Shown one piece after another: positions 13,556 to 41,280 of a stretch of 47,115 nucleotides of DNA; within the stretch, counting starts at the first letter, position 1; every line of letters starts with the position of its first letter. The DNA is from a virus. The notes below the pieces were generated by a model that worked only from the letters and a program-made list of their open reading frames with translations, made no database searches and was not told the origin of the DNA. Where the stretch lies: IMG/VR virus record IMGVR_UViG_3300020473_000047, positions 1-47,115 of that record, one strand, 5' to 3'. The position numbers and the translations under genes were made by a program.

Positions 13556-15460
13556 ATGGCGACACCATATAGATTTAAACGGTCTGCTATTGCGGGTAAG
13601 AGACCTGCATTATCAGACTTAGAGTTAGGAGAGATAGCTCTCAACACTTATGATGGAAAATTATATGCAGAAAGAGAAACTAATGGTGTTGGTATAGCTG
13701 ATACGGTTGCATTACTCAATCCTTGGGAAGAGACATATGGTGGAGGATCAATTGAATATGTTGGTACTGTAACTGCTACAACATATACAGGTGATCAAGT
13801 TATAGGAACTCCAGCAGGTGGATTTAAATCAGGAGCATTTACAATTAACGCTACTGATCATACGAAGGATAGTATAAATGATTTAAATAATATTCTTGGA
13901 AAGTTGGTTCCTGATCCACCAGATACTATTGATGGTGTAACTTTAGAAATTGATACTACTACTTTACCAGCAGTACCAAATGCTACAACTACTGTAAGAG
14001 GACTCTGTGCTGGATTTACCCCTGTAAATAATACAGGTGGTTCTGCACCATCAGCAGGAAGTGAATATTGGAGGAATAATGATAATACTATAACGACTGC
14101 ATGGTTAACAGAATATGGACCAGGAGATTCTGGAACTGTTAAGGGATTTATTAATGCTGTTGGTGTAGGAACAACTACTTTATCAACAGGAACTAATGAT
14201 GGAACATATGATACATTAGTAATAGCAAATAATGAAGATGCATCTAATTCCACAAGAAATACTGGAATTACATCTCAATTCTATCAGATTTATGATACTA
14301 GGTTATTAAATTCACCTTGTCTTGATGGATATAATAAAGTAAAGATTCAACAGGACTCTAGTAATACTACTGATCTATATTGGTATGAGGATCCAAGTAC
14401 GGTAGGTGTTCCTGATATAACCTTTGGTACTGTATCTGTACCTGGATCACCAACATTATCATATTCATCATATGTTCCTCATTACACTGAGGCAGCAGGT
14501 AATGCATTTAGTTACGTTGTAAGTGTAGAGAATGCTACTGGTGATATGTATTATCGTGCTACTGGAACTAGTGCTAATAAACTTCTTTGGTCTGAATCAC
14601 AGACAACGGGATTTACTGCTGGTGGTACTAAATTATTCAATCAGTTTAGTGGTGGTACTCATCCTCCTGCTAGAAATTTTGGTGTTGGTACTCCTGTAAC
14701 TTGTACTGTTTCACATACTCCTAGAAATATACACGCTACTATTACATCTAATCATTTTAATAGATGGGATGTTTGGACACCTTATGGTGCAGATCAGAAT
14801 GAGAGAGTAACACTAAGTGAAGCAGTCAACATTATGGGTACGACTGCTGACTATACTAATAATGTTGATGAAGATGCTATTGAGTGTACTGTTGGTAGTT
14901 TAACTGGTGGTTCTGCTACCAGAGTTAAAGCAGGAGCAACTGGTGATACACCGACTGCTACTTATGTTACTTGGGATGGTAATGCATCAGGAACCCCTGC
15001 TGTATATGAATCCATTGTAAGAGGTGGTGATCTACGTCACGATGAGACAAATTATTCTACTGGGTATCTACCAGCTGGACCTAATTTATCATCTGGTAGA
15101 AGTGGAAGTCAATATTTCCAATTCCAATTTATACAGGCATCTATTTCACAGTTTAATATTTCTTATACAGGAGCATTAGCAGGATGTTGGGTATGTATGC
15201 CTGATAATTCTACTTGGACTACTGGATTATCTGCTACTAATGGTTGGGCAAATATGTTTGCTTCATATGCTGGTGCTGGTGTTCCCAATAATGCCAATCC
15301 TGGATGTGCTACTGGTGGTGTAATGGATACTAATGGTGGTACATTCACTTGTACATTCGGTACTGAATCATCTTCTAATGATAGTAATAATAGAGTTTTG
15401 ATTAGATTCAAATTAACTAGTGGAAATTCCATTAGTGATATTTCATTATCAGATACATAA
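13556..15460 (+). CDS. tail-fibre-like virion protein with conserved N-terminal motif
   Basis: A 634-residue structural protein. The N-terminal 40 residues (RFKRSAIAGKRPALSDLELG, then EIALNTYDGKLY) match the short N-terminal motif of many phage tail fibres and the Mtd-type tropism proteins, which attaches the fibre to its partner. The rest is Gly/Ser/Thr-rich beta structure without catalytic motifs, with an aromatic-rich C-terminal domain likely to form the tip. It opens the fibre array. It lacks the 177-nt module shared by later fibres. Confidence 0.78.
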   Translation: MATPYRFKRSAIAGKRPALSDLELGEIALNTYDGKLYAERETNGVGIADTVALLNPWEETYGGGSIEYVGTVTATTYTGDQVIGTPAGGFKSGAFTINATDHTKDSINDLNNILGKLVPDPPDTIDGVTLEIDTTTLPAVPNATTTVRGLCAGFTPVNNTGGSAPSAGSEYWRNNDNTITTAWLTEYGPGDSGTVKGFINAVGVGTTTLSTGTNDGTYDTLVIANNEDASNSTRNTGITSQFYQIYDTRLLNSPCLDGYNKVKIQQDSSNTTDLYWYEDPSTVGVPDITFGTVSVPGSPTLSYSSYVPHYTEAAGNAFSYVVSVENATGDMYYRATGTSANKLLWSESQTTGFTAGGTKLFNQFSGGTHPPARNFGVGTPVTCTVSHTPRNIHATITSNHFNRWDVWTPYGADQNERVTLSEAVNIMGTTADYTNNVDEDAIECTVGSLTGGSATRVKAGATGDTPTATYVTWDGNASGTPAVYESIVRGGDLRHDETNYSTGYLPAGPNLSSGRSGSQYFQFQFIQASISQFNISYTGALAGCWVCMPDNSTWTTGLSATNGWANMFASYAGAGVPNNANPGCATGGVMDTNGGTFTCTFGTESSSNDSNNRVLIRFKLTSGNSISDISLSDT

Positions 15461-15479
15461 TATAGGAGAGGTAAATTAA

Positions 15480-18588: not shown

Positions 18589-19596
18589 ATGACTATAATC
18601 AGACCCAATAGTATAGCTGGTATTAACAGTATTACTGCAAAGAATACTGATCAAATGAAGTTGTATGATTCCAATGGAGATTGGTCTCATGTAAGAGCAG
18701 GAGTTATAACTGCTACGAAATTTGTTGGACCTTTTGATGGTACAACAGTATCAGGATCTACTGGTGCTTTTAGTGGTGATGTAACTATATCTGGAAACTT
18801 AGGTGTAGCAGGAACTGTTACTTATGAAGATGTAGCACGGGTAGACGCAACAGGAATAAGTACTTTTAGAGAAGGGTTTAAACTTGGTCCTCTTGCTGGT
18901 ATTGCACTTACTGCTTATAAAGATGGAAGTATAAGAACAAGTGGAGTTATAACTGCAACAACTTATTATGGATCAGGAGCACAGTTAACTGGTATTACAG
19001 GAACAACAATAAACAATAACGCAGATAATAGATTAATAACTGGATCTGGAACCGCAAACACATTAGAAGGGGAATCTACTCTTACTTATGATGGTGCAGG
19101 ACAACTTAATATTACAGGAAATGGTTCTGGAGATGGTGTAAGTATTACTAATAATGGTAATCATTACACACAAATTACTATGGATGCAGATAGAACTTCT
19201 GCAAATAATGCTTTAGGAATTATTCAAGGTAAATGGAATAATACTTCTGTCTGTAGTATTTACTTAAGGTCTGGTTCAGATACTACTAATAAGGATGATG
19301 GAGAGATAGTTTTTAATACATCAGAGACTGGATCTGAAGTTACTAGATGTAAAATTAATAATTCAGGACATCTTCAACCAGGAGCAACTAATACTTATGA
19401 TTTAGGTGGACCTGGTGATCGTTGGAGAGATTTATATACACAAGATTTACAACTCTCTAATGAAGCAGTAGAAGGTGGTAATGATGTTGATGGAACTTGG
19501 GGTGACTATACTATTCAGGAGGGTGAAAATGATCTTTTCTTAATAAATAATCGTAATGGTAAAAAGTATAAGTTTAATTTGACGGAGGTAAACTAA
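18589..19596 (+). CDS. modular tail-fibre protein (177-nt module)
   Basis: A 335-residue fibre protein. After a unique N-terminus (MTIIRPNSIAGINSITAKN) it carries the shared 59-residue module (NLGVAGTVTYEDVARVDATG ... DGSIRTSGVITA) at residues 65-123, then TTINNNADNRLITGSGTANT, a block found almost unchanged in the fibre at 24471. The C-terminal part (DLGGPGDRWRDLYTQDLQLS) is the common phage motif that often precedes a chaperone or peptidase domain, here absent. It overlaps the next gene by one base, and that gene may encode the tip. Confidence 0.8.
   Translation: MTIIRPNSIAGINSITAKNTDQMKLYDSNGDWSHVRAGVITATKFVGPFDGTTVSGSTGAFSGDVTISGNLGVAGTVTYEDVARVDATGISTFREGFKLGPLAGIALTAYKDGSIRTSGVITATTYYGSGAQLTGITGTTINNNADNRLITGSGTANTLEGESTLTYDGAGQLNITGNGSGDGVSITNNGNHYTQITMDADRTSANNALGIIQGKWNNTSVCSIYLRSGSDTTNKDDGEIVFNTSETGSEVTRCKINNSGHLQPGATNTYDLGGPGDRWRDLYTQDLQLSNEAVEGGNDVDGTWGDYTIQEGENDLFLINNRNGKKYKFNLTEVN
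18781..18957 (+). repeat. fibre module copy 1 (177 nt)
   Basis: In-frame 59-codon block. The first 62 bases are identical to copy 7 at 38022, 19 kb away. Confidence 0.9.
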
Positions 19597-21194: not shown

Positions 21195-22976
21195 ATGTCT
21201 TTCACTAGAATCACTGGACCTGGTATTAGTAGTTATCCTGTTATAAGTGGTATTATAACAGCACTTAATTTTAAGACAGGTACTACTAATGTTCATAGTG
21301 TAGGTGTAGAAGCTGCAGGAATTAATGTATTAGGTGGTGATACTCCTATAGGTACTGGTGCGACAATTTATAAAGATGGTGGAGCAAGATTTAGTGGTAT
21401 TGTAACTGCAACCACTATAAATGCTACTTCATTCAGTGGTGATGGTTCTAATTTAACATCACTACCAGCAGGATTAGGAACTGCATTAAGTAGTACGCAG
21501 ACTAGTCCATTAAATAAATTATATTATACAGATAATGTATTAAGTATTGGTGCAACAATTACAGTTGATCCACCTCCAAGTGCCTCTGCTGCTTATACTC
21601 AATACACAGATATTGTTGTAGAAGATACAGCAGATTTAATTATGGGAGATGGTGATGACCTTGTTCCCGATGTATTAGGTCTATCTACTGAAACTGCTAC
21701 AGTATATTCAGCAACGGGTGGAAGAATTCGTGCTGGTACATTTACAAATGCAGGAGCAAATGGAGCACCTACTGCAACCAATGGATGGATTGTAACTGGT
21801 GTTTCAACTGCTACTACTTTTAAAGGTGCTATTGATGCATCAACTGGTGCTTTTAGTAGTAATGTAACTATATCAGGTAACTTAGGTGTTGCAGGAACTA
21901 TAACTTATGAAGACGTAGCACGGGTTGATGCTACTGGTATTAGTACTTTTAGAGAAGGATTTGGTGTTGGACCATTAGCAGGTATTGCTTTAACTGCTTA
22001 TAAAGATGGTAGTATAAGAACAAGTGGTATTATAACAGCTAATACTTATTATGGATCTGGTGCAAACTTAACTGGTATAGATGCTACTCAAATAGTTACA
22101 GGAAATACTAGTGTTCAAACAGTAGATACTGGATCTGATGGACATGTTAAAGTAACAACAGAAGGAACAGAAAGATTTCGCATCGCATCTGATGGCAAGG
22201 TTGGAGTCAATACCACAGCAGGTGGTGCAAAATTAACAGTTGATGCATCTTCTGGTTACTCAATCATAGCAAATGGTAACTCAAATGCTATCGCATTGGG
22301 TAGTAATGGAGTTATTCTTTTCGGAAATAAAAATGCAGCTGCATATGCGGCAGGTGGTTATGATGCAACAGAACATATTTTTAAAGCAAGTGGTTCTGAA
22401 AAAATTCGCATCGGATCTGCTGGACAATTTGGTATTGGTGGTGCTAACTACGGATCATCAGGTCAAGTATTAACTAGTGGAGGTGCTAGTGCTGCTCCTT
22501 CATGGGCAGCTGCTGGTGGAGTAACATATATTGATCAGTGGCATTATACTACTAATCAAGATTTAAGTAGTCAAGATCCTTTAACGGGTTGGACTCATTC
22601 TACCCATGCAGCAAATGCAAGGTTGGGAACTGCGATGACAGAAAGTTCTGGAACTTGGTCGTTTCCAGCGACAGGAATGTGGTTAGTTTCTTTCAGTTGT
22701 TGGTATTATGCAAATGCTCGTTCAAGTAGATGGATGCAATCACGAATAAACACAACCGAAGATAATTCGTCTTATAACCAAGCAAGTGCCGCAAGTAATG
22801 CGATATATAACACTGGTTCTAATGGTTATAACAGTGCTTATTCTCAGTTCATATTTGATGTTACTAACACAACAAATTGTAAGGTTAGATTCTCAGTTGA
22901 TTCTCAAGCTACACTACAATACATGGGTGGAAGAAACTTTACTTCTGTTAAATTTATTAGACTCTGTGGTACATAA
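21195..22976 (+). CDS. modular tail-fibre protein with C1q-like tip
   Basis: A 593-residue fibre. Residues about 27-75 (FKTGTTNVHSVGVEAAGINV...GGARFSGIVTAT) are nearly identical to a block in the short fibre at 27199. The 59-residue module follows at 224-282. Then come shaft repeats with RIGSAGQFGIGG-type motifs, and from about 445 a C1q/TNF-like domain (SGTWSFPATGMWLVSFSCWY, ending FTSVKFIRLCGT) that probably forms the trimeric tip. No chaperone-like gene follows directly. Confidence 0.78.
   Translation: MSFTRITGPGISSYPVISGIITALNFKTGTTNVHSVGVEAAGINVLGGDTPIGTGATIYKDGGARFSGIVTATTINATSFSGDGSNLTSLPAGLGTALSSTQTSPLNKLYYTDNVLSIGATITVDPPPSASAAYTQYTDIVVEDTADLIMGDGDDLVPDVLGLSTETATVYSATGGRIRAGTFTNAGANGAPTATNGWIVTGVSTATTFKGAIDASTGAFSSNVTISGNLGVAGTITYEDVARVDATGISTFREGFGVGPLAGIALTAYKDGSIRTSGIITANTYYGSGANLTGIDATQIVTGNTSVQTVDTGSDGHVKVTTEGTERFRIASDGKVGVNTTAGGAKLTVDASSGYSIIANGNSNAIALGSNGVILFGNKNAAAYAAGGYDATEHIFKASGSEKIRIGSAGQFGIGGANYGSSGQVLTSGGASAAPSWAAAGGVTYIDQWHYTTNQDLSSQDPLTGWTHSTHAANARLGTAMTESSGTWSFPATGMWLVSFSCWYYANARSSRWMQSRINTTEDNSSYNQASAASNAIYNTGSNGYNSAYSQFIFDVTNTTNCKVRFSVDSQATLQYMGGRNFTSVKFIRLCGT
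21864..22040 (+). repeat. fibre module copy 2 (177 nt)
   Basis: In-frame 59-codon block, same length as the other full copies. Differs from copy 1 mostly at third codon positions. Confidence 0.9.
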
Positions 22977-23049: not shown

Positions 23050-24450
23050 ATGAGTATACTGAACGTTAATAAACTTGCTCCAATTGGTAGTGGTAGTACT
23101 ATCACGGTTGCTGCTGGTATTGCAAGTTATACTGGGAAAATAAATTGTGCAGAGTTTGATAATAACCCTTCATTTACTGGTAATGTAACTATTGGTGGTA
23201 ATTTAGGTGTTGCTGGAACTATAACTTACGAGGATGTTGCTAGAGTTGATGCTACTGGTATTAGTACATTTAGAGAAGGATATCAGGTAGGACCATTAAC
23301 TGGTATTGCACTAACTGCTTATAAGGATGGAAGTATAAGAACAACAGGTATTATAACTGCTTCAAGTTTTGTTGGTGATGGTTCTGGTCTAACTGGAATT
23401 AATACAGCATTTGGTAATTCAAGTGTAAACTCTACTGGTATCATAACTGCAACTGCTTTAGTTCCCACTACAGGTCAACTTTCTCATCGCAATCTTGTGA
23501 TGAATGGCCAGTTCGACATTTGGCAAAGGGGTACTGATTCTGGATCACAAACTGCAAGTGGTTATTTTAGTGCAGATCGTTGGAAATCAAACGATTCTGG
23601 TGGAACTTATCAAATAACAAGACAAGCTTTTACTGTTGGTCAAACTGATGTTCCAAGTAATCCAAAATATTACATGAGGTTTGCTGTTACTACAGGAAAC
23701 AATAATGTTAGTTTAGGTCAAAGGATAGAAGGTGTTGATAAAGTACAAGGTCAGGTTACTTTAAGTTTCTGGGCAAAAGGAACAAATCCTAATGGAGGAA
23801 CTTTTGATATTATTAACAGACAAGATTTTGGATCAGGTGGTAGTGTTTCAAGTGTTGTTGATACAAGTGTCGGGAGTTTTTCTGTAACTGCAAGTTGGGT
23901 AAAGAAAACATTTACATTTACACCACCAAGTATTTCTGGAAAAACATTAGGAACAACTCATTCTGGTTTTTATGAATGTCAAATTTTTAGACAACCAGCA
24001 GGTGACTCTGGAACAGCAGCATATACAATAGATATTGCAAATGTTCAACTTGAATTTGGACCAGTGGCTACTCCGTTCGAGCAACGTAGTTATGGAGACG
24101 AACTTGCTCGTTGTCAACGTTATTTTTATGCTATTACAGGTGATGAATATGATTTACCTGGTATACCTACTTATGCTAATAACGCTACAACCGTTAGAGC
24201 TATGGTTCAAGTACCAGTTCCTATGAGAACCGCACCTAGCTTTACAGGTAGTGCAACCTCCATGAAGGTAGATTCTTCGGATGATAGCAATTCATTTAAT
24301 GTCAGTAATCTTGCTATTTCTCAACCTGGCACAGGTAATCCTTGTGGATTTGTTCTCCAATATGACGCAGGTGGAATGACTGCTGGTCAAGCTGGTATGT
24401 TGGAATTTACAGCAAATAGTGGATATATGCATTTTTCAGCCGAGTTATAA
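23050..24450 (+). CDS. modular tail-fibre protein with NG...QRYF-type tip domain
   Basis: A 466-residue fibre with a short N-terminus, the 59-residue module at 46-104, a GDGSGLTGI linker, and from about 145 a distal domain beginning HRNLVMNGQFDIWQRG and closing EQRSYGDELARCQRYFY. That domain recurs in three other fibres here and is widespread in phage tail fibres, with jelly-roll-like strands between the ends (TLSFWAKG, FTFTPP). Probable sugar-binding receptor domain. The protein ends in SAEL, as do its relatives. It has its own late promoter. Confidence 0.8.
   Translation: MSILNVNKLAPIGSGSTITVAAGIASYTGKINCAEFDNNPSFTGNVTIGGNLGVAGTITYEDVARVDATGISTFREGYQVGPLTGIALTAYKDGSIRTTGIITASSFVGDGSGLTGINTAFGNSSVNSTGIITATALVPTTGQLSHRNLVMNGQFDIWQRGTDSGSQTASGYFSADRWKSNDSGGTYQITRQAFTVGQTDVPSNPKYYMRFAVTTGNNNVSLGQRIEGVDKVQGQVTLSFWAKGTNPNGGTFDIINRQDFGSGGSVSSVVDTSVGSFSVTASWVKKTFTFTPPSISGKTLGTTHSGFYECQIFRQPAGDSGTAAYTIDIANVQLEFGPVATPFEQRSYGDELARCQRYFYAITGDEYDLPGIPTYANNATTVRAMVQVPVPMRTAPSFTGSATSMKVDSSDDSNSFNVSNLAISQPGTGNPCGFVLQYDAGGMTAGQAGMLEFTANSGYMHFSAEL
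23185..23361 (+). repeat. fibre module copy 3 (177 nt)
   Basis: In-frame 59-codon block beginning VTIGGNLGVAGT. Close to copies 2 and 5. Confidence 0.9.
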
Positions 24451-24470: not shown

Positions 24471-25739
24471 ATGTCTAGAATTAGAGCTAACCAAATTACT
24501 AATAAAGGTGCAAACGGTGCTCCTAATTTTCCTAATGGATTAACTGTTACTGGTATTGTAACTGCTACAGTATCAAATTCAACAATTGGTACTCTTGCTG
24601 TAACGGGTAATGCAACCATTGACGGTAACTTGGGTGTTGGTGGAACCATAACTTATGAAGATGTAGCACGGGTAGATGCGACAGGAATAAGTACTTTTAG
24701 AGAAGGTTTTAAAGTTGGTCCTCTTTCTGGTATAGGATTAACTGCCTATAAAGATGGAAGTATAAGAACAAGTGGAATTGTAACTGCAACAAGTTTTAGT
24801 GGTAGTGGTGCAAACCTAACTGCATTAAATGCAAATAATATTTCTGCTGGTATTGTAACTGCTGCTAGATTGGGTGGTGGTACAGCAGCCAATACTAAGT
24901 ATCTAAGAGGTGATGGAATATGGGATACGGTGACTGGTACTACAATAAACAATAATGCAGATAATAGATTAATAACTGGATCTGGAACCGCAAACACATT
25001 AGAAGGTGAGGCAAATCTTACTTGGAATGCTCAAACCTTACTTGTTAAAAGTGGTGGCGATACATATACAAGAATTACTGGTGATAGAGGTAATTCAGAT
25101 AATTTAACCATCGGAAGTATTGAATTTGCAAACGACAATGGTAGTAATGGTGTAATTGCTGAAATAAAGGCAATAACTGGTGACAGTGGTACTCAAAATA
25201 CCAAAGGTCAAATTGTTTTTCGTACAGATAATGGTTCTGCTATAGCAGAAAGACTCCGCATCACATCTGATGGATATGTAACAAAACCAAATCATCCAGC
25301 TTTCAAGGCTGGAAGAAGTACTGATTATACTTGTAATGCTGGAGATGCAATCATCTTTAATGACCTTACTGCTTCTGCTGGTCATTTCAATACAGGTAAT
25401 CATTATAATACTAGTAATGGAAAATTTACAGCACCAGTAACTGGAATTTACTTTTTCTATACTTTGGTTATCTATCGGAGCATTTCTGATAATTCAGATC
25501 AAACAGACTGTTTCGATCTTTATAGAGACCGTTCGGGGAGTAGTGATCATATAGCTTTCTCATCCAGAAGAGCAAAATATAGGGACAATTATACTGGTAC
25601 TGCTGCATACTATACTGATCATTCTACTGGTCTAGTTCCTCTAACTGCAGGTGATGAGTTATATGTGAAAAATAAAAGACAACAACAGGTACATGGTAAT
25701 ACTAGATATAGTTATTACTGTGTTCATTTAATAGGATAA
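24471..25739 (+). CDS. modular tail-fibre protein with C1q-like tip
   Basis: A 422-residue fibre. The 59-residue module lies at 48-106, followed by TTINNNADNRLITGSGTANT, shared nearly base for base with the fibre at 18589. The shaft ends with RLRITSDGYV. The C-terminal ~140 residues form a recognisable C1q domain (SNGKFTAPVTGIYFFYT ... LTAGDELYVKNK ... YYCVHLIG), a trimeric adhesion fold. Likely role is host lipopolysaccharide or surface-protein recognition. Confidence 0.82.
   Translation: MSRIRANQITNKGANGAPNFPNGLTVTGIVTATVSNSTIGTLAVTGNATIDGNLGVGGTITYEDVARVDATGISTFREGFKVGPLSGIGLTAYKDGSIRTSGIVTATSFSGSGANLTALNANNISAGIVTAARLGGGTAANTKYLRGDGIWDTVTGTTINNNADNRLITGSGTANTLEGEANLTWNAQTLLVKSGGDTYTRITGDRGNSDNLTIGSIEFANDNGSNGVIAEIKAITGDSGTQNTKGQIVFRTDNGSAIAERLRITSDGYVTKPNHPAFKAGRSTDYTCNAGDAIIFNDLTASAGHFNTGNHYNTSNGKFTAPVTGIYFFYTLVIYRSISDNSDQTDCFDLYRDRSGSSDHIAFSSRRAKYRDNYTGTAAYYTDHSTGLVPLTAGDELYVKNKRQQQVHGNTRYSYYCVHLIG
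24612..24788 (+). repeat. fibre module copy 4 (177 nt)
   Basis: In-frame 59-codon block beginning ATIDGNLGVGGT. Confidence 0.9.
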
Positions 25740-27666: not shown

Positions 27667-27670
27667 TAAT

Positions 27671-28534: not shown

Positions 28535-28536
28535 TC

Positions 28537-29104: not shown

Positions 29105-30703
29105 ATGGCCAGTAATTTAAGAGTCGATACTATTTTACCATCACAAGGAACTACTCTTGGGATAGGAACTGCTGGCGGCACCATAAATTTTTTAGGTAAT
29201 TCTAATTTAACTACTAGTGGTGATGTAACTATTGGTGGTAACTTAGGTGTTGGTGGTACGATTACTTATGAGGATGTTGCTAGAATAGATGCAACTGGTA
29301 TTAGTACATTTAGAGAAGGATTTGGTGTAGGACCACTCACTGGTATTGCACTGACGGCATATAAAGACGGAAGTATAAGAACAAGTGGTATTATAACTGC
29401 TACAAGTTACTATGGTTCTGGTGCAAACTTAACTGGTATTGATGCCACTGCAATTCAGACAGGTAATACTGTTGTTCAAACTAATACCTCTAGAATTGAT
29501 GCTAAGATTGCTAATGTAGGTATTCTTACATTAACTTCATCTGGAATAGATGTTACTGGTGTTGTAACTGCTACTACCTTTAAAGGAGCATTCTCTGGTG
29601 ATGGATCAGCACTGACAGGTGTTGGTGTTGGAACTGCTGATAGTATTAATACTAGTGGTATTATAACTGCGACTGCATTTATCCCATCAGTAGGAAACTT
29701 AGGTGGTAGAAATCTCTTGATAAATGGAGATTGTCAAATCAATCAGAGGCATGGAGTAGGTGGAAATGTAACAGGGTTAACGAATGGTGCTGGTGAATTT
29801 GGTGCTGATAGATGGGAGTTAAAGATTACCAATCCATCGGGAGGAACCTGGGCTTTTAACCATACTGATACTTCTTATGAGCCAGGTGGATTTAGAAGAA
29901 GCATTCAATGTGCTTTGACTGGAACAGCACAAGCGACTCCTCATGCGGATACATTCATTTATATAAGGCAGAAAATAGAAGCTAGAAATGTTGTTCGTTT
30001 AGCTTACGGTAATGCTGCTAAGAAATCAGTTACTTTAAGTTTTTGGATGAACTGTAACGTTGCAGGAAATGGGCAAGTAAACCTTATCCACGGAGATGCG
30101 AACGAATGGGTTAGTGGTGTTTACACATATTCCAATGCAGGTTCTTGGCAAAAGCAAACTATTACTTTCCCTGGAAGTGATAGTGAAATAAACAACGATA
30201 ATGGACTTGGTTTTTGGGTTGAGTTTGTAATTGTTGCTGGGGCTAATGCAAAGACTGGAGCTGTAAGAACAACTTGGACAACAACTTCTACAGGAGATAG
30301 AGGAGCTGGTCAAACAATGAATATTGGTGCAACCGTTGGTCATAAATGTGCGTTTACAGGCATTCAACTTGAAGAGGGCTCAGTAGCTACACCGTATGAG
30401 CACCATAGTTATGGTGAGGAATTAGCTAGATGTCAGAGGTATTATGAAGGGATGTATATGAACGCTGGTACAGCTATGTTTCAAGGTTCTTCAAGTATAA
30501 ATGGTAAAACTGAGAACGTAATTTTTGCTGTTGAAAAAAGAGCACAAGCTACTTGGTCTTTAGAAGGTAATTCTTCATGGACTGGAACTACTCCTAATGT
30601 TTTTACGTCTAAAAATTCTGCTTTATTTCATCACGGAAGTACAGAATTTAGCTTGGGTGATAGTTCTCAAGACTTATGTGGTTCATTTAGTGCGGAGATT
30701 TAA
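29105..30703 (+). CDS. modular tail-fibre protein with NG...QRYY-type tip domain
   Basis: A 532-residue fibre opening MASNLRVDTILPSQGTT. The 59-residue module lies at 41-99, then further shaft motifs (GTADSINTSGIITATAF), and from about 200 the distal domain GGRNLLINGDCQINQR ... YEHHSYGEELARCQRYYEG. It is a relative of the tip domains at 23050, 30707 and 40117, with its own loops, and ends CGSFSAEI. Likely receptor-binding trimer. The gene has no clear late promoter of its own, so it may be read through from 27178. Confidence 0.8.
   Translation: MASNLRVDTILPSQGTTLGIGTAGGTINFLGNSNLTTSGDVTIGGNLGVGGTITYEDVARIDATGISTFREGFGVGPLTGIALTAYKDGSIRTSGIITATSYYGSGANLTGIDATAIQTGNTVVQTNTSRIDAKIANVGILTLTSSGIDVTGVVTATTFKGAFSGDGSALTGVGVGTADSINTSGIITATAFIPSVGNLGGRNLLINGDCQINQRHGVGGNVTGLTNGAGEFGADRWELKITNPSGGTWAFNHTDTSYEPGGFRRSIQCALTGTAQATPHADTFIYIRQKIEARNVVRLAYGNAAKKSVTLSFWMNCNVAGNGQVNLIHGDANEWVSGVYTYSNAGSWQKQTITFPGSDSEINNDNGLGFWVEFVIVAGANAKTGAVRTTWTTTSTGDRGAGQTMNIGATVGHKCAFTGIQLEEGSVATPYEHHSYGEELARCQRYYEGMYMNAGTAMFQGSSSINGKTENVIFAVEKRAQATWSLEGNSSWTGTTPNVFTSKNSALFHHGSTEFSLGDSSQDLCGSFSAEI
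29225..29401 (+). repeat. fibre module copy 5 (177 nt)
   Basis: In-frame 59-codon block beginning VTIGGNLGVGGT. Confidence 0.9.
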
Positions 30704-30706: not shown

Positions 30707-32137
30707 ATGGGAATCCAGATAAACGGAACAAATGATACCATTACAACCAATGATGGTACTATAAGTATAGATGGTAGTACTACTTTAACGGGTTCGTTAA
30801 CTGGTACTACTGGTACTTTTAGTGGAGATGTTGGTGTCGCTGGTACATTAACCAGTGAAGATAAGACTAATATAGATTCGGTTGGATTAATAACTGCAAG
30901 AACTGGAATTAAAGTTGGACCTATTACAGGTGTAGCAGCAACTCATTATGCAGATGGAAGCATAAGAACAACAGGTATTGTAACTGCAACAACTTTTGTG
31001 GGTAACTTGACTGGTAATCCAACTGGTAGTGGTGCAAACTTAACCAGTATACCTGCAGGTCAATTAACTGGTGCATTACCAGCTATTAGTGGTGCAAGTT
31101 TAACTGGTATTAATACTGCATTTGGTAACTCAAGTGTTAATACTACTGGTATTATAACTGCAACGGCATTTATTCCATCAACAGGACAATTAAGCCATCG
31201 AAATTTGATAATTAATGGAGCCATGTCAGTGGCCCAACGTGGGACCGCTGAAGTTACTGCTGCAAATGATACAAATACCTATAGAGCAGATAGGTTTAAA
31301 TTCGCTGAAAATACTTCTGGTTCTGTCGGTATGAGTATTCAAGATGGTACTGGTGAATTTTCAAAATGTGTTAAAGTACGTGTTCTCTCAACCGACACAA
31401 GTGTCGGTAGCAATGACCGTGCCTCTATACAAACTATTATTGAAGACCTTGATGTTAAACATTTACAGTGGGGAACAGCAAATGCTAAAACAGTAACATT
31501 AAGTTTCTGGGTAAAAAGTAATGTAGCAGGACAAACTTTCTGTCTTAATGTATATAATTCAGGTACAAATAATAGAACTTATATTGCAGAATATACATTA
31601 CCAGGTGGGACTGCAAATACCTGGCAGAAAAAAACATTAACTATCCCTGGAGATACAACAGGTACATGGGGGCATATTGGTGTTAGATGGGTATTAATGG
31701 GTGGTTCTGATAAAGTAGGTAGTCTAGGTTGGCAAGCTTGGAGTGGTAGTGGTGGATTAGAAATGCAAACAAGTAATCAATATAATTGGATGGGTGATAG
31801 TAATGATTTTCATTTAACAGGCGTTCAGTTAGAAGTTGGCTCAGTAGCCACACCATTTGAGCACCGCAGCTATGGAGAAGAACTTAGTCGTTGCCAACGT
31901 TATTATCAAGTAGGTTCTAGCATCGGTGCTGGTTACGGAAGTGCGAATGGCTATGCTAGAGCAGGTTCCACATTTGCAACGCAAATGAGAACAACACCAA
32001 CATTCACCGCAACTAACACAGGTAGTGGTTCTATTATCGCTACTGGTAGGAGTAATACTGGTTTTTATGTAACTTATGGTAGTTTAGGTGGAACTAGTGC
32101 AGGAATTTTTAATTTTACAGCAGAATCGGAACTTTAA
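30707..32137 (+). CDS. modular tail-fibre protein with NG...QRYY-type tip domain
   Basis: A 476-residue fibre (MGIQINGTNDTITTNDGT). It carries a divergent module (GVAGTLTSEDKTNIDSVGLI ... DGSIRTTGIVTA), a linker GQLTGALPAISGASLTG shared with 37554 and 38444, and a join FGNSSVNTTGIITATAFIP close to that in 23050. The distal domain runs from HRNLIINGAMSVAQRG to EHRSYGEELSRCQRYYQ. Its DNA start (GGAGCCATG...GTGGCCCAACG) is more GC-rich than the shaft, as is that of 40117, suggesting the tip moved as a cassette. Confidence 0.8.
   Translation: MGIQINGTNDTITTNDGTISIDGSTTLTGSLTGTTGTFSGDVGVAGTLTSEDKTNIDSVGLITARTGIKVGPITGVAATHYADGSIRTTGIVTATTFVGNLTGNPTGSGANLTSIPAGQLTGALPAISGASLTGINTAFGNSSVNTTGIITATAFIPSTGQLSHRNLIINGAMSVAQRGTAEVTAANDTNTYRADRFKFAENTSGSVGMSIQDGTGEFSKCVKVRVLSTDTSVGSNDRASIQTIIEDLDVKHLQWGTANAKTVTLSFWVKSNVAGQTFCLNVYNSGTNNRTYIAEYTLPGGTANTWQKKTLTIPGDTTGTWGHIGVRWVLMGGSDKVGSLGWQAWSGSGGLEMQTSNQYNWMGDSNDFHLTGVQLEVGSVATPFEHRSYGEELSRCQRYYQVGSSIGAGYGSANGYARAGSTFATQMRTTPTFTATNTGSGSIIATGRSNTGFYVTYGSLGGTSAGIFNFTAESEL
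30827..30988 (+). repeat. fibre module, divergent copy
   Basis: A diverged, slightly shorter version of the 177-nt block. It keeps GVAGTLTSEDKTNIDS in place of GVAGTxTYEDVARVDA and ends DGSIRTTGIVTA. Confidence 0.7.
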
Positions 32138-33094: not shown

Positions 33095-34711
33095 ATGTCT
33101 GATATTCGTTTTAATAATTGGAAGCATCAATCTGGAACAGGAGGAGTATATCAGGATTCTCTTGGTCAGGTTGGTATTGGTTCGACTATTCCTAATGCGA
33201 CTTTAGATATTGGTGGGGATGGATATTTTACAGGTATTGTAACTGCTACTACTTTTAAAGGTGCTGTTGATGCATCAACTGGTGCTTTTACTAGTAATGT
33301 AACTATTGATGGTAACTTAGGTGTTGCTGGTACTATAACTTATGAGGATGTAGCAAGAGTAGACGCAACAGGAATAAGTACTTTTAGAGAAGGTTTTGGT
33401 GTTGGACCACTAACTGGAATAGCATTAACTGCTTATAAAGATGGAAGTATAAGATCAACAGGTATTATAACTGCATCAAGTTTTAGTGGTGATGTTGCTG
33501 CTGGTGATATTGCTTCTGGCACAGTTCCAACAGCAAGATTAGGTTCTGGTACTGCTAATAATACAGTATTTTTAAGAGGAGATAGTTCTTGGCAAGTAGT
33601 TGATTCATCATCTATCAAGAATGGTAGTGATGTAAAAGTACAGGCAAATGCATCTGGTGCAACTGTAACTGGTATTTTAACTGCTGTTGGTGGCAATTCA
33701 ACTGAAGGTTCATTTATATCTGGGACTGCTGTGGGTGTAGGAACTACTACAACTGCAGGAAGAAATGCAGGTGTTGGTACTGCTACAGGAACTTTAATTT
33801 ATAATAGTACTAGTAACGAATTACAATGTTGGCACGGTACTCAGTGGGTTGCTGCGTCAGTTCAACCATTTACTGCTACTGGTGGAACAAAAAATACATC
33901 TAGTAGATCTGGTTGGGCAGTTCATACATTTACTGGACCAGGAACATTTACTGTCAGTGGACAATCTAAGACAGGTGCAGAATATTTAATAGTCGGCGGC
34001 GGCGGTGGCGGCGGCAAAGGTGGTCTGGGTGGTACTGGATTTGAAGTAGGTGCTGGTGGTGCTGGAGGACATAGATCGTTTAGTGGACATACATTAACTC
34101 CTGGATCTTATACTGTAGTTGTAGGTGCTGGTGGACCTGGTAATGGAACAGGTGACGGACCTCCATCTTCAGTATTTGGACAAACCTCTGCTGGTGGTGG
34201 CGGTGGTGCAGGAAATAGTTATGGTAGTAATGTTGGTAGAAATGGTGGATCTGGTGGTGGAGGAGCACATCCAAATACAGCAGGAGGAAATGGAAATACT
34301 CCACCTGTAAGTCCATCTCAAGGAAATAATGGTGGTAATGGAGGAGTTAGTACTGGCGGCGGCGGTGGTGGTGCTGGTGCTGGTGGACAAAATGGAATTA
34401 ATAACCCCAATAACCCTGGCGGTGGTAGTGGTGGAAATGGAACAGCTAATTCAATAACTGGTTCTAGTGTAACTCGTGCTGGTGGTGGTGGCGGTGGTCA
34501 TCATCACCAACCATATAGACCACCAGGAGGATCTGGTGGTGGAGGTGCTGGTGGTAGCACTCATGGAACTCCACAAGCAGGTGGACCACCGTCAAGTGGA
34601 GATCCTGGAACTGCCAATACAGGTGGTGGTGGTGGAGGAGCAGGATTCGCTGGCGTTAATGGTGGAGATGGTGGATCTGGTATTGTTATTATTGCTTACC
34701 CAACTTCTTAA
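33095..34711 (+). CDS. modular tail fibre with glycine-rich adhesin tip
   Basis: A 538-residue fibre opening MSDIRFNNWKHQSGTGGVYQ. The 59-residue module lies at 69-127. A TGVGTATGTLIYNSTSNELQ-type linker leads to a tip from about 265 (FTGPGTFTVSGQ, YLIVGGGGGGG) made of long Gly runs split by loops with Asn, His and Pro, closing GGSGIVIIAYP. Gly-rich tips of this sort are known in phage adhesins, where polyglycine-II helices present variable loops to receptors. The loops are the likely specificity determinants. Prolyl-hydroxylase-like genes lie shortly downstream. Confidence 0.82.
   Translation: MSDIRFNNWKHQSGTGGVYQDSLGQVGIGSTIPNATLDIGGDGYFTGIVTATTFKGAVDASTGAFTSNVTIDGNLGVAGTITYEDVARVDATGISTFREGFGVGPLTGIALTAYKDGSIRSTGIITASSFSGDVAAGDIASGTVPTARLGSGTANNTVFLRGDSSWQVVDSSSIKNGSDVKVQANASGATVTGILTAVGGNSTEGSFISGTAVGVGTTTTAGRNAGVGTATGTLIYNSTSNELQCWHGTQWVAASVQPFTATGGTKNTSSRSGWAVHTFTGPGTFTVSGQSKTGAEYLIVGGGGGGGKGGLGGTGFEVGAGGAGGHRSFSGHTLTPGSYTVVVGAGGPGNGTGDGPPSSVFGQTSAGGGGGAGNSYGSNVGRNGGSGGGGAHPNTAGGNGNTPPVSPSQGNNGGNGGVSTGGGGGGAGAGGQNGINNPNNPGGGSGGNGTANSITGSSVTRAGGGGGGHHHQPYRPPGGSGGGGAGGSTHGTPQAGGPPSSGDPGTANTGGGGGGAGFAGVNGGDGGSGIVIIAYPTS
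33299..33475 (+). repeat. fibre module copy 6 (177 nt)
   Basis: In-frame 59-codon block beginning VTIDGNLGVAGT. Confidence 0.9.
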
Positions 34712-34726
34712 TTATTAAAAATTATT

Positions 34727-35077
34727 ATGGCTTTTAGAAAATTTAATGGTACTGAATATCCAGTGCCTGGTGTAGATACTGCGATTCAAGTACTAAGACC
34801 AGGAGCACGTTGGGATTTAGAAAATAGAAAATTTAATGCATTTGAATGTGATGATGGATCTGAACCTCCAACTTGGGAGGAGATTGAAGAAGAAATTAAA
34901 AGAGAAGTAGAGATATATAATCACTATCTTTATGAAAGAAATCGTGAAAAAGAATATCCAGAATTAAAAGATCAACTGGATATGTTATATCACGATATTA
35001 AGAATGGAAATCTTGAGAATGGATCGTGGATTCAAGCAATAGATAGTATAAAGGAGAAATATCCTAAACCTGATTGA
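34727..35077 (+). CDS. small fibre-associated protein, DQLDxLY type
   Basis: A 116-residue protein directly after the Gly-rich fibre. The N-terminal part IQVLRPGARWDLEN resembles the chaperone-like protein at 20096. The C-terminal part YPELKDQLDMLYHDIKNG ... SIKEKYPKP matches 28537 and 39154. It thus looks like a hybrid of two adaptor types. Likely role is folding or capping of the neighbouring fibre, inferred from position. A consensus sigma70 promoter overlaps its stop codon. Confidence 0.68.
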   Translation: MAFRKFNGTEYPVPGVDTAIQVLRPGARWDLENRKFNAFECDDGSEPPTWEEIEEEIKREVEIYNHYLYERNREKEYPELKDQLDMLYHDIKNGNLENGSWIQAIDSIKEKYPKPD

Positions 35078-35123: not shown

Positions 35124-35762
35124 ATGGCATATCAATTTGTTTGGCACTTTACAGATCTTCCTGAGAAGGTTGTTGATATTATTGAAGACGACTTAAAAGA
35201 TAAATTTGATACTAAGATGAAAGATTCTCTTCTTTATGGAGCATCTATTGATAAGGATATAAGAAATTCACAAAGTACTTGGGTTCCTACTAGTCATTGG
35301 GTAGCAGGATTTATTTGGCATTATGTACAAAAAGCAAATAGGGAGAACTTTTTATATGATTTGAGTCATATTGATGGTGAAAATATGCAATATACAAGAT
35401 ATAGTGAAGGACAATATTATGGTTGGCATAATGATTCAGCGTTACCAACTCATTATAAACCATCATCTACTGCTATAAATGGAGAGGACTCTGTAAATAA
35501 TGAAGATCTTCGTAACGATTTTTTAAATAAATCTTGTGAGCAAATTAGAAAGTTATCATTTACATTACAACTTTCTCATCCTGATGACTATGAAGGTGGG
35601 AATATTGAATTTATGGGTGTAGATGATGCCAAGTACATTGCACCTAGGCAAAGAGGATCAATTGTTTTCTTTGATTCACGTATGAAGCATAGAGTTTGTG
35701 AAGTTACTAAAGGTGTTAGAAAATCTATAGTCGGATGGGTTATTGGTCCAAGATGGAAATGA
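35124..35762 (+). CDS. 2OG-Fe(II) oxygenase, prolyl 4-hydroxylase type
   Basis: A 212-residue oxygenase of the prolyl 4-hydroxylase superfamily. Iron ligands His102 and Asp104 (YGWHNDSAL) and His189 (MKHRVCEV), with Arg199 for 2-oxoglutarate, give the complete HxD...H...R set. The core strands KLSFTLQLS and GSIVFFDS support the fold. Such enzymes hydroxylate protein prolines or other substrates using oxygen and 2-oxoglutarate. It is first of three oxygenase-type genes behind a consensus promoter and next to a Pro/Gly-rich fibre, making fibre modification a possible but untested role. Confidence 0.85.
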   Translation: MAYQFVWHFTDLPEKVVDIIEDDLKDKFDTKMKDSLLYGASIDKDIRNSQSTWVPTSHWVAGFIWHYVQKANRENFLYDLSHIDGENMQYTRYSEGQYYGWHNDSALPTHYKPSSTAINGEDSVNNEDLRNDFLNKSCEQIRKLSFTLQLSHPDDYEGGNIEFMGVDDAKYIAPRQRGSIVFFDSRMKHRVCEVTKGVRKSIVGWVIGPRWK

Positions 35763-36418
35763 TTGAAGAAGATTTAATTAAAAGTGAGTTAGAAAATTCT
35801 GGTACTTCTTGGACTAAGAATGAGTTTTTTGATGCAAATGGATACTTAATAATTAAAAAGATATGTGATCCAAAATTACTTCATTGTTCTGTTCCAACAG
35901 ATAGAGGTTTATTTAAATGGTGGGGTATGAGAGAGGAGCAATTTATATCTTTTGATGATCAACAAGTAGAAGATTCAATTGAACGTTATTGGTATCCTCA
36001 ATATAGAGATATTCATATTAATATAAAAGATATAGTAGAAACAGCAATTGGTCGTGGACTTTATGAGACTTATTATTATGATAGGTTTTATTTTCCTGGA
36101 CAAGAATTAAAGAAACATGTAGATAGACCTGCTTGTGAAATATCAGTTACTGTTCATATTGATACTAATATTAAAGAAAACTGGCCTATATGGGTTAAAG
36201 ATGTTAATGGTGAGAATGTTCCTGTAGTATTAGAACCAGGTGATGCAATGATATATAAAGGTTGTGAAAGACCTCATTGGAGAGAACCAATGCCAGGTCT
36301 TTTAGAAAGTATAAGGGATGGACTAGATAAGCATTCATTATATTATCATCAAATATTTTTTCATTATGTGTTACAAGATGGAATAAGAGCACATTATGCA
36401 TGGGATAAAGGTCAGTAA
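35759..36418 (+). CDS. 2OG-Fe(II) oxygenase-like protein
   Basis: A 219-residue protein with an HxD...H set. Candidate ligands are His120 and Asp122 (LKKHVDRPACEISVTVHID) and His173 (CERPHWREP) after LEPGDAMIYKG, a typical turn before the distal histidine. The C-terminal YYHQIFFHYVLQDG fits the last strands. It resembles marine-phage dioxygenases with an N-terminal ~100-residue extension. The ATG in the ATGA overlap was chosen. In-frame ATGs at 35735 and 35753 are alternatives. Second gene of the oxygenase trio. Substrate unknown. Confidence 0.75.
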   Translation: MIEEDLIKSELENSGTSWTKNEFFDANGYLIIKKICDPKLLHCSVPTDRGLFKWWGMREEQFISFDDQQVEDSIERYWYPQYRDIHINIKDIVETAIGRGLYETYYYDRFYFPGQELKKHVDRPACEISVTVHIDTNIKENWPIWVKDVNGENVPVVLEPGDAMIYKGCERPHWREPMPGLLESIRDGLDKHSLYYHQIFFHYVLQDGIRAHYAWDKGQ

Positions 36419-37020
36419 TGGACATTATACAAAAACAGACTGATATAGATTGTAATGTATTAACTAATTTAATTCTTAAAAAAGAACCTCAGATTATAAA
36501 AAAGTATCCTCCCACTGGATTTGATGGTGAATATACTGATGGTCAAACTCAATTAGGATCTAATTCTTTAACTTCTAGATTTTATCATTTTAATGTTTTG
36601 GATTGGGATGGTACTGATTTAGTTAAAAAAACAATTAGATCTGGTTATGAAGCATATACTGGATTAATAGATACTCCAATTTATGTTAAGTGTTGGGCTA
36701 ATGTAATGAGAAAAGGAGATCAAATAAAATCCCATAAACATGCTGAACAATATAAGTATAGGGAAGAGGATTATTTGTGTGGACATATAAGTGTTAAAGT
36801 GGATGGTACAACTTCTACCTATTATCAAAGTAGTTCAGATATTCATTCATTTTTAAATATTAATGGTATGATTACTATATTTCCTTGTTATCTTTATCAT
36901 TGGACTGATCAATATAATGGAGATTCTGAAAGAATAACTTTGGCATTTGATATTAAATCAAAAAAATTATTTGATGTAGATATACATCCAGATGCTAAAT
37001 GGTCTTGGGTTGAAATTTAG
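36418..37020 (+). CDS. putative 2OG-Fe(II) oxygenase
   Basis: A 200-residue protein similar to the small phage family of putative 2OG-Fe(II) oxygenases. Blocks are YVKCWANVMRKGD, then His106 and His108 (KSHKHAEQ), GHISVKVDG, and ITIFPCYLYHWTDQ (His161) followed by SERITLAFDI (Arg172). The first motif is HxH rather than HxD, as in that family. It overlaps the gene before by one base and ends the trio. A late promoter-like motif follows. Confidence 0.72.
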   Translation: MDIIQKQTDIDCNVLTNLILKKEPQIIKKYPPTGFDGEYTDGQTQLGSNSLTSRFYHFNVLDWDGTDLVKKTIRSGYEAYTGLIDTPIYVKCWANVMRKGDQIKSHKHAEQYKYREEDYLCGHISVKVDGTTSTYYQSSSDIHSFLNINGMITIFPCYLYHWTDQYNGDSERITLAFDIKSKKLFDVDIHPDAKWSWVEI

Positions 37021-37533: not shown

Positions 37534-37553
37534 GAAGTAAAACTGAAAGTATA

Positions 37554-38417
37554 ATGGCGTTAGGTAGTACTATAACTCAAGTTACAGAGTCTGGTATTAA
37601 ACCAGGAATTACTTGGCCTAGTTTTGTATCTAGTGGTGTTGCAACTGCTACAAATTTTAAGACAGGAACTACTGATGTTCATAGTACAGGTGTCACTGCT
37701 GCAACAGTTGTTGTTGGTTCTGCTGTAACAGGTAATTCTACTGGTTTGGATATAACTGGTATTGTAACTGCAACAAGTTTTAGTGGTAGTGGTGCAAACT
37801 TAACCAGCATTCCTGCTGGACAATTAACAGGTACTGTTGCTGACGCAAGAATATCAACATTAACATCATCAAAATTAAGTGGTGCATTACCTGCAATAGA
37901 TGGTTCAGCATTAATTGGTGTTGCTTCAACAGAATATATACATTCTTCAACAAATGCAGTATTAAGTGGAATAGTTACAACTGGACCTCTTAATTCTTCA
38001 ACAGGAAATTTTAGTAGTAATGTAACTATATCTGGAAACTTAGGTGTAGCAGGAACTGTTACTTATGAAGATGTAGCACGGGTTGATGCTACTGGATTAA
38101 GTACATTTAGAGAAGGATTTGGTGTTGGACCATTAGCAGGTCTAGCACTTACTGCTTATAAGGATGGTAGTATAAGAACATCTGGTATTGTAACTGCTGG
38201 TAGTTATTATGGTGATGGTGCTAACTTATCAAATCTTCCTGCTACTGCTCCTGTTGGTGGTGCAACAACAAATAAAGTATTTTTTAATAATGATCAGACA
38301 GTTTCAGTAACATATTCAATACCTGCAAATACAAATTCAGGAAGTTTTGGTCCGATCACAGTGGCAGCTGGACAAACGGTCACGATACCATCAGGATCTT
38401 ATTGGACTATTGTATAA
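37554..38417 (+). CDS. modular tail-fibre protein, short
   Basis: A 287-residue fibre protein. It contains NFKTGTTDVHSTGV, related to 21195 and 27199, a linker GANLTSIPAGQLTGTVADAR, and the 59-residue module at 157-215. It ends in a compact strand region (YSIPANTNSGSFGPITVAAG, then SYWTIV) in place of a large tip. The module's first 62 bases are identical to those in 18589. The next gene, after a late promoter, encodes a tip-like protein. Confidence 0.78.
   Translation: MALGSTITQVTESGIKPGITWPSFVSSGVATATNFKTGTTDVHSTGVTAATVVVGSAVTGNSTGLDITGIVTATSFSGSGANLTSIPAGQLTGTVADARISTLTSSKLSGALPAIDGSALIGVASTEYIHSSTNAVLSGIVTTGPLNSSTGNFSSNVTISGNLGVAGTVTYEDVARVDATGLSTFREGFGVGPLAGLALTAYKDGSIRTSGIVTAGSYYGDGANLSNLPATAPVGGATTNKVFFNNDQTVSVTYSIPANTNSGSFGPITVAAGQTVTIPSGSYWTIV
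38022..38198 (+). repeat. fibre module copy 7 (177 nt)
   Basis: In-frame 59-codon block. The first 62 bases are identical to copy 1 (18781), pointing to recent exchange. Confidence 0.9.
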
Positions 38418-38420: not shown

Positions 38421-38443
38421 TTAGGAAGTAGGAGGTCGAATTA

Positions 38444-39154
38444 ATGCCAGTAACTATTAGTGGAGCAGGAACAATAGCAGGAATCACCACAGGTGGTTTA
38501 CCAGATGCAATTGTTGATACGGATATGATTAAGGCAGGTGTTGTCCAGAATGCTCATATGAATACAATGGATGCCAGTAAACTAACTGGAACATTGGGAG
38601 CTTTAGCAGCCACTAATTTAACAGGTCTACCTGCTGCTCGTTTAACTGGTGCATTACCTGCACTTGATGGATCTAATTTAACTGGTGTTGGTAGTAATAT
38701 TCTTAAGCAACAATACTTTAATGTTGAGTGGTTAAGATCTTCTTCTAATAGTTGGTCAAATGGACCTACGATGACATATACTACAGTTGATCCAGACTCA
38801 AAGATAAATATTCAATTGTATGGTACTGGTATGGGTCATTTTTGGGGTAGTAGTGATGATGATGCTGCATATCATATGAGAATCTATAGAATTTCACCAT
38901 CTGCTGCGGAATTAAAGAGATCTGGATTCTATGTTGAATATCCTAATGATCGTATTGGTGGTGGTGGTGATTTTAGTGAGTGGTCTGGTGCTCCTCGTGT
39001 CTATTGGCTTCCCAATACTATTGGACATTGTTTTGATAATCCCTGTACTAGTGCAGGAGATGATATTACATTTCGTTTTGATATATTAAGATGTTCCGCA
39101 TCTGTTTATGATATGGATGGTTCATCTTATTGGATGGTTACGGAGTTTACCTAA
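38444..39154 (+). CDS. fibre protein with beta-rich tip domain
   Basis: A 236-residue protein. The N-terminus MPVTISGAGTIAGITTGGLP is common in cyanophage fibres, followed by shaft motifs AARLTGALPALDGSNLTGV shared with 30707 and 37554. From about 85 a distinct aromatic beta domain (YFNVEWLRSSSNSW, SKINIQLYGTGMGHFWG, ending SSYWMVTEFT) probably forms the tip. AGGAGGTCG gives a strong ribosome site. An adaptor gene overlaps its stop by one base. Confidence 0.72.
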   Translation: MPVTISGAGTIAGITTGGLPDAIVDTDMIKAGVVQNAHMNTMDASKLTGTLGALAATNLTGLPAARLTGALPALDGSNLTGVGSNILKQQYFNVEWLRSSSNSWSNGPTMTYTTVDPDSKINIQLYGTGMGHFWGSSDDDAAYHMRIYRISPSAAELKRSGFYVEYPNDRIGGGGDFSEWSGAPRVYWLPNTIGHCFDNPCTSAGDDITFRFDILRCSASVYDMDGSSYWMVTEFT

Positions 39155-39492
39155 TGGCTTATAACAATGAAACGCAAACTGAAGATGAAGGTAGAGCTTT
39201 ATTTTTACTATCTGTAGAGGGCAGAAATGCTGATGATTGGATTCCTTGGAGTGTCGATCATCGTGGTCTTATATGGAATAATGGTAAAACAGATCCACCT
39301 ACTCAAGCAGAAGTAGATGCCAAGATTGCAGAATTTAAAGCAGCTGATCTTGCAAATGCTTATAAAGAACTTAGACGTAAAGAATATCCTCAGATAGGAG
39401 ATCAATTAGATGATCTATATAAAAAAGGTGCTTTTTCTGATGAGATGGCAGCGAAAATTAAAAAAGTAAAAGATGATATTCCAAAACCATGA
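39154..39492 (+). CDS. small fibre-associated protein, DQLDxLY type
   Basis: A 112-residue protein starting at TAATG with the preceding fibre. The ATG was chosen over an upstream TTG. The C-terminal signature YPQIGDQLDDLYKKGAF ... KKVKDDIPKP matches 28537 and 34727. The N-terminal half (FLLSVEGRNADDWIPWSVDH, PPTQAEVDAKIAEF) resembles the PT-x-x-E-I helix of the other adaptors. Probably a chaperone or adaptor for the fibre before it. Overlaps the next gene as ATGA. Confidence 0.65.
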   Translation: MAYNNETQTEDEGRALFLLSVEGRNADDWIPWSVDHRGLIWNNGKTDPPTQAEVDAKIAEFKAADLANAYKELRRKEYPQIGDQLDDLYKKGAFSDEMAAKIKKVKDDIPKP

Positions 39493-40112: not shown

Positions 40113-40116
40113 AATT

Positions 40117-41280
40117 ATGAGTACATTAAACGTAGAAGGAATTAAGAATACCGCAGCAACAAGTGATGCAATTTCGTTTGCTACGGATGGAACGTGTACG
40201 GCACGACTTACTAATCCAAGAAGTCATCGCAATTTGATAGTTAATGGGGCCATGAGAGTGGCCCAGAGAGGGACCTCATCCACATCTAGTGGTTATTACA
40301 CAGTTGATAGATTTAAATATACTTATAGTGGAACTGACAATGCACCTACACAGGCACAAGTTGATGTTGCTTCTGGTACAACACCTTATACTTTAGGGTT
40401 TAGAAAAGCTTATAAAATTACAAATGCAAATCAAACAGGTGGTGCTGGTGCTGGTGATCATATTCGATTAGAAGTTAATATTGAAGCACAGGATATAGCA
40501 AATAGTGGTTGGAATTATAAATCTAGTTCAAGTTATATAACTTTATCTTTCTGGTGTAAATCAAGTGTTGCACAAAATTTCTATGCTGGTATAAGAACAC
40601 CAGATGGAACATCACAAGGATATTCTTTTGAGACAGGTTCTTTAACTGCCGATACTTGGACAAAAATTACAAAAACAATTCCTGGCAACAGTAATTTAAC
40701 TTTTGATAATGATGCTGAACTAGGGTGGAACATGGATATTGCTATGTTTATGGGAACAAATAATACTACTTCTGGAAACACAATGAATCAATGGGCTGCA
40801 TACTCTGGTTCTAATGAAATGCCAGATAATACATCAACTTGGTACACAACAAACGGTGCTACTTGGGAAATTACAGGAGTTCAGTTAGAAGTAGGAGATA
40901 CGGCAACAGATTTTGAGCATAGAACATATGCTGATGAAATATTACGCTGTTATCGTTATTTCTATAAAGCTCCTGGATATAATAGTCATGCAATGTTCTC
41001 AAGAGGTAATACTGCAGTCGGGGCTACTGTTAACACGCCCGTTCCTATGAGGACAGCACCAACGAGTGGACCAACAAATTGGGTAAGAGTTCAAAGACCA
41101 GGTGTTGATTATGGAGATTCTTCTGCTGGTAGCTGGACAGTAGGAGGTGCTGCTCCTGCAGTTACAGTAACAGGAAGTTATATTTTCTTTCAATATGGTT
41201 CTATGTCAAATGTAACAAACACATCAAATACTGTTTATGGGTTTCTTACTTACGATCTTGAATTAAATGCTGAATTATAA
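40117..41280 (+). CDS. tail-fibre protein with NG...YRYF-type tip domain
   Basis: A 387-residue protein made almost wholly of the distal domain HRNLIVNGAMRVAQRG ... EHRTYADEILRCYRYFY with a 35-residue lead-in (MSTLNVEGIKNTAATSDAIS). It is the fourth relative of the tips at 23050, 29105 and 30707. Inner strands include YITLSFWCKSSVAQNF and TWEITGVQLEVGD, and it ends YDLELNAEL. It has no 177-nt module. It closes the fibre array, and a strong early-type promoter follows. Confidence 0.8.
   Translation: MSTLNVEGIKNTAATSDAISFATDGTCTARLTNPRSHRNLIVNGAMRVAQRGTSSTSSGYYTVDRFKYTYSGTDNAPTQAQVDVASGTTPYTLGFRKAYKITNANQTGGAGAGDHIRLEVNIEAQDIANSGWNYKSSSSYITLSFWCKSSVAQNFYAGIRTPDGTSQGYSFETGSLTADTWTKITKTIPGNSNLTFDNDAELGWNMDIAMFMGTNNTTSGNTMNQWAAYSGSNEMPDNTSTWYTTNGATWEITGVQLEVGDTATDFEHRTYADEILRCYRYFYKAPGYNSHAMFSRGNTAVGATVNTPVPMRTAPTSGPTNWVRVQRPGVDYGDSSAGSWTVGGAAPAVTVTGSYIFFQYGSMSNVTNTSNTVYGFLTYDLELNAEL

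Follow-up and report, generated by a model that had tools for sequence, protein, structure and literature searches.

Introduction

The swapping of phage tail-fibre tips is already classical, and receptor-binding proteins in general undergo domain shuffling. In T-even phages, recombination between conserved motifs swaps the specificity of the distal tail-fibre adhesin (Tetart, Desplats and Krisch 1998, as presented in PMC3797505), and domains common to otherwise unrelated receptor-binding proteins, with ongoing shuffling, have been reported (Smug 2023, PMC10684548). Cyanomyophages and pelagimyophages are described as having a host recognition cluster, a hypervariable region of low synteny that contains several genes for fibres and carbohydrate binding and averages 34 kb in cyanomyophages (Zaragoza-Solas 2020, PMC7029224). 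In cyanophage S-TIM4 grown alone, clustered polymorphisms were found in a YadA-domain tail-fibre/structural gene and were explained by the authors through recombination with matching sequences at other genomic sites (Enav 2018, PMC6224464).

The stretch of DNA analyzed here (the window) comprises 47,115 bases and is an entire virus record, IMGVR_UViG_3300020473_000047. It contains an array of fibre genes in which one internal module recurs, and a comparison with the described systems reveals likenesses as well as differences. Conserved motifs are involved both in T-even swapping and in the tip exchange of the relatives analyzed below, but the T-even motifs are placed, in the account available to us, in the gene-37/38 locus encoding the adhesin of the long tail fibre, whereas a single internal module is found here in up to eight different fibre genes of one genome, which could allow exchange between positions. 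The ten array proteins that were searched matched other tail-fibre families, none of them labelled gp37/gp38. The window resembles the host recognition cluster as a large variable region of fibre genes with low synteny to the loci L049 and L015. That cluster is reported to sit between VrlC and gp14, neither of which was located in the 47-kb window contig, where the array lies between psbA/purC and thyX/phoH. The cluster is characterized by gene content and variability, and the portion of PMC7029224 consulted names no recurrent junction. The account of Smug 2023, as far as its text was available, is a general phage survey and does not describe the window module, its copy number or its crossover points. 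In S-TIM4, mostly synonymous patches were exchanged within repeats and no tip was swapped, whereas tips were swapped in the relatives analyzed below. A multi-copy internal module acting as a junction throughout a cyanophage fibre array appears to be undescribed in the limited literature searched, in which the string TYEDV did not occur (subscription journals were outside its scope).

Results and Discussion

The fibre array

By its sequence, the window is a piece of a T4-like marine cyanophage (a cyanomyovirus contig). The fibre array spans approximately 28 kb (13556-41280, plus strand) and consists of module-bearing fibres, fibre and tip genes without the module, fibre-assembly genes and 2OG oxygenase genes. 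All fibre genes of the array lie on the same strand, between psbA (9833-10915) and the SAICAR synthetase gene purC (11583-12359) on one side and the thymidylate synthase gene thyX (at 44162) and a phoH-like gene (at 45067) on the other; the fibre genes of P-SSM2 likewise come after psbA. The 5' edge of the array is marked by an HNH endonuclease gene (13126-13497, plus strand), which has counterparts of 64-72% identity in P-SSM2, L049 and L012 and precedes the fibres in the window, P-SSM2 and L049. The tips belong to unrelated families, including C1q-like (gene 24471), glycine-rich (33095) and phrog_892-type (18589) tips, and phrog_4492-type tips are found in genes 23050, 29105, 30707 and 40117. 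A tail-fibre assembly chaperone gene (PF16778; 20096-20485, plus strand) is located 3' of a tip gene, and shorter genes resembling it in size and position are present at 28537-28914, 34727-35077 and 39130-39492 (phrog_1787/8886/9114, function unknown). The array also contains three adjacent genes at 35124-37020, the first and third of which match 2OG-Fe(II) oxygenase families, while relatives of the middle gene adjoin fibres in L020 and L068. Outside the array, the protein encoded at 1051-1581 is labelled endonuclease V by PHROGs and matches a 2OG-Fe(II) oxygenase family of Pfam above the curated cut-off, which makes the PHROGs label look doubtful.

Several genes are common to the window, L049 and L015, and their order is not fixed: gene 32171 lies ahead of gene 25744 in L049 and L015, opposite to the window. 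A single fixed fibre order across related phages, which the initial annotation had named as an argument against ongoing exchange, was thus not found.

A 59-codon module in seven fibre genes

A gapless block of 59 codons is found in seven fibre genes of the window, all on the plus strand: copy 1 at 18778-18954 (gene 18589-19596), copy 2 at 21861-22037 (gene 21195-22976), copy 3 at 23182-23358 (gene 23050-24450), copy 4 at 24609-24785 (gene 24471-25739, with the C1q-like tip), copy 5 at 29222-29398 (gene 29105-30703), copy 6 at 33296-33472 (gene 33095-34711, with the glycine-rich tip, PF21722) and copy 7 at 38019-38195 (gene 37554-38417). The length and reading frame of the block agree with the initial annotation, which had called the module exact; the copies are not identical and share 77-89% of their DNA and 83-93% of their protein sequence. 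The seven copies have the VARVDATGISTFREG residues in common. A diverged eighth copy (LTSEDKTNIDSVGLITAR), also proposed earlier, is present in gene 30707-32137 at about 30809-30985 (plus strand), its limits being fixed by register with copy 4, and is nearer to the common cyanophage version.

Averaged over pairs of copies, nucleotide identity amounts to 0.78-0.88 across the block and drops to chance level (0.24-0.37) within approximately 60-90 nt on both sides. This bears out the earlier observation that the N-termini before the module and the tips after it differ, as they come from unrelated families. Among the seven copies, mean dS is 0.78 (0.33-1.40) and dN is 0.04-0.13; the block is under strong protein constraint (purifying selection). 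Synonymous divergence equal to that of the flanks, which had been suggested as evidence against exchange, was not observed, and the flanks are non-homologous so that no flank dS exists.

Only three exact repeats of at least 40 nt occur in the window. The longest (64 nt) links copies 1 and 7 at 18779-18842 and 38020-38083 (plus strand), approximately 19 kb apart; the long identical run claimed for this pair is real and slightly longer than the 62 bases originally given. The second (50 nt) links genes 18589 and 24471 at 19021-19070 and 24957-25006 (plus strand), approximately 6 kb apart, and lies 3' of the module at unequal distances from it. It forms the exact core of a patch noted before, 19006-19072 with 24942-25008, in which 65 of 67 bases match. 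The third is a local direct repeat of 53 nt (7049-7101 and 7178-7230) in gene 5450-7762, which encodes a tail-fibre-like protein outside the array. An N-terminal patch at 21246-21416 recurs at 27283-27453 (plus strand) with 87% identity and partly also at 37632-37714; for the section 21279-21420 the reported repeat was confirmed (124 of 142 bases), and its partner was relocated to 27316-27457, approximately 16 nt from the position first proposed.

The core of the module in other phages

The block in the window is a local variant of a module that many marine cyanophage fibres contain. Its first half, termed the core, reads GGTLTYEDVTN(V/I)DS(V/I)GIITAR and was found in 181 copies in 128 of 261 loci, some of which carry several; the sample of loci was partly gathered by the core motif, and this proportion is not a frequency. 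A search of a phage collection with a query containing the core matched 38 records, in up to five places per record, and those records are named as Synechococcus or Prochlorococcus phages, a cyanophage, or marine single-cell viruses. The window version with VARVDATGISTFREG had a single partial match outside the window among the loci collected, in L020, which was also the one other contig detected with a degenerate DNA pattern for the VARVDATG version.

Across 58 homologues from many phages, the residues T30, D33, D38, G41 and T44 are invariant. A structure prediction of the module with these homologues, taking window and viral-contig sequences as input, returned a pLDDT of 78 and a pTM of 0.39 with almost no secondary structure and no interpretable fold; perhaps the module folds only as a trimer. 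A Foldseek comparison of the predicted module with the PDB gave no match, and a sequence search of solved structures with the module gave nothing below an E value of 0.26.

Tip exchange at the core in related phages

The cultured Synechococcus phages RN05-S (L149) and RB11-B (L151) are 97-99% identical upstream, and their homology ends at the core in two fibres. In fibre 1, 99.3% identity over 13.8 kb extends to 16 nt past the core, where the sequences become unrelated until similarity resumes near the gene end. In S-B05, the fibre-1 N-terminus is the same but is followed by a third, different tip. In fibre 2, the two phages are identical just 5' of the core and show background identity 3' of it. 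The RB11-B gene follows the fibre-2 backbone of RN05-S to core position +49 and the fibre-1 sequence of RN05-S/S-B43 from core +27 to +91, with one base excepted in each match. The overlap of these two parental matches places the crossover inside 23 nt within the core. The exchange replaced a Peptidase_S74 tip with a phrog_4492-type tip of the carbohydrate-binding type, which is a relative of the tip of another array fibre. Beyond approximately +91, the match to the donor falls to 85-87% over the next stretch, which indicates that the donor was a relative of fibre 1 and not the RN05-S gene itself. The swap would fit exchange within one genome and exchange between co-infecting phages alike.

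A third fibre of these phages (33796-35052 in RN05-S and 27336-28637 in RB11-B) switches its tip at another recurring motif, GPLSNRN. This motif and its variant GQLSHRN represent a second recurring junction 5' of phrog_4492 tips, seen in fibre 3 of RN05-S/RB11-B and, as GQLSHRN, in the window.

The combination of the same N-terminal part, unrelated tips and a break at the conserved motif is seen in RN05-S/RB11-B/S-B05, in L009/L010 and in others. L009 and L010 are IMG/VR contigs from one metagenome, in which three fibres are 91-94% identical through the N-terminus and the core; similarity is lost 1-3 nt before the core end and unrelated tips follow. Core-bearing genes were grouped by their common N-terminal part into 21 families. 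The alignments break before the gene end in 15 of these, and in 10 of the 15 the break falls at the core or up to 50 nt after it, whereas 1.97 would be expected if break positions were uniform (P = 7.6e-7, in a test that takes only alignments reaching the core). The remaining five families break later or uncertainly, and six of the 21 show the core without a tip change. Without the requirement to reach the core, 22 N-anchored pairs end before it, 17 at the core or up to 50 nt after it and 46 later, so that junctions favour the core but are not confined to it. As the donor cores are alike, alignments extend to the core end irrespective of the actual crossover site, and break positions are inexact for most pairs. 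Apparent breaks in L009_9983/L010_9977 and in L032/L034 were dropped as artefacts of the alignment, because the sequences remain similar further downstream. In the fibre region, P-SSM2 and P-SSM5 have almost the same gene layout, with no tip change by gene coordinates. Taken together, the proposal that tips are swapped by homologous recombination at the module is supported in the relatives, where it draws on RN05-S/RB11-B, on L009/L010 and on the enrichment of breaks at the core.

The module could instead be a required shaft or trimer-registration domain that recurs as each fibre of this kind depends on it, with selection acting on the protein only and exchange being incidental at the sole conserved stretch, and we give this view roughly an even chance of being correct. 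Low dN relative to dS among the copies, the five residues invariant in all 58 homologues and the six families that have the core without a tip change agree with it. On its own, it leaves unexplained why pairs with 91-100% upstream identity lose homology so sharply at the core, and why breaks are enriched at this position. It is compatible with exchange at the module, and such a requirement may be the reason why the junction persists.

Mosaic module copies in the window

Where two copies have a residue in common, they use the same codon in 65% of cases, compared with 50% expected from the fibres' own codon usage, and in three copy pairs silent-site agreement is random or close to it. The copies are old: given the high silent divergence, they are not being homogenised now, and no recent whole-module exchange is seen in the window. 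The module copies are nevertheless mosaic inside the block. A PHI-type test on neighbouring informative sites yielded p = 0.0005-0.0015, depending on neighbourhood size, while a Sawyer-type gene-conversion test on the silent codons of the copies was not significant (p = 0.11; p = 0.053 for the longest run). Tip swapping at the module is accordingly less well supported for the window phage than for its relatives: the mosaic signal and the 64-nt and 50-nt repeats are in favour, but mean dS is high.

This divergence would also be expected if the seven copies were tandem duplications of fibre genes whose ends then diverged, with no exchange in this genome. The occurrence of the VARVDATGISTFREG residues, in near form, elsewhere only in L020 among the loci collected is in line with such a history, and tandem pairs do exist, as two neighbouring fibre genes in L014 (7591-9060) look like a tandem duplication and are 83-91% alike to the gene end. 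Duplication is an unlikely explanation for the window, where the ends come from unrelated families and are not diverged homologues, the PHI signal indicates mosaicism, and long exact repeats lie 19 kb and 6 kb apart.

Less likely still is that the module serves as a docking site for one common virion or chaperone partner, with the copies co-evolving within each genome. The window version is far more alike within its genome than to other phages, and the fibre-assembly gene and related small genes lie inside the array. However, the copies in L009 and L010 resemble their positional counterparts more than other copies of their own genome, which argues against a general within-genome coupling. A dedicated system for tip variation (site-specific inversion, a diversity-generating retroelement or homing driven by the HNH endonuclease next to the array) is highly improbable, as the fibre genes all face one way and a scan of the larger window ORFs gave no reverse transcriptase, invertase or integrase, even though the HNH endonuclease gene holds a conserved position at the array edge.

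A proposed shaft module as probable junction for tip exchange

Homologous tip exchange at a shaft module is considered the probable overall explanation. The block would be a conserved stretch inside the fibre shaft, a location that is itself a prediction, and selection on the protein would keep it alike across fibres with unrelated N-termini and tips. The common in-frame DNA would offer general homologous recombination, presumably performed by a phage recombinase, a place for crossovers between fibre genes, either in one genome or between co-infecting relatives. With each crossover, a fibre would keep its N-terminal half and receive, in frame, the linker and tip of a different fibre, and over time such events could build arrays of mixed tip types. 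We infer that the same exchange built the array of the window and that receptor binding would be altered as a result. A multi-receptor or bet-hedging function, as suggested in the initial annotation, would be a hypothetical role of such an array. A more tentative thought, which is rather doubtful at present, is that the array acts as a standing library from which tips are moved between positions during the infection of a single cell, providing switchable adhesion without a dedicated enzyme.

On the question of how marine cyanophages change their host range, accounts of the fibre region mostly go no further than calling it hypervariable. Short reads may mis-assemble fibre arrays of this kind. 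With a named junction module and a crossover mapped in cultured phages, fibre-tip exchange can be counted in metagenomes and put to the test in isolates. Tip exchange at the module is a likely route by which such viruses alter their adhesion targets.
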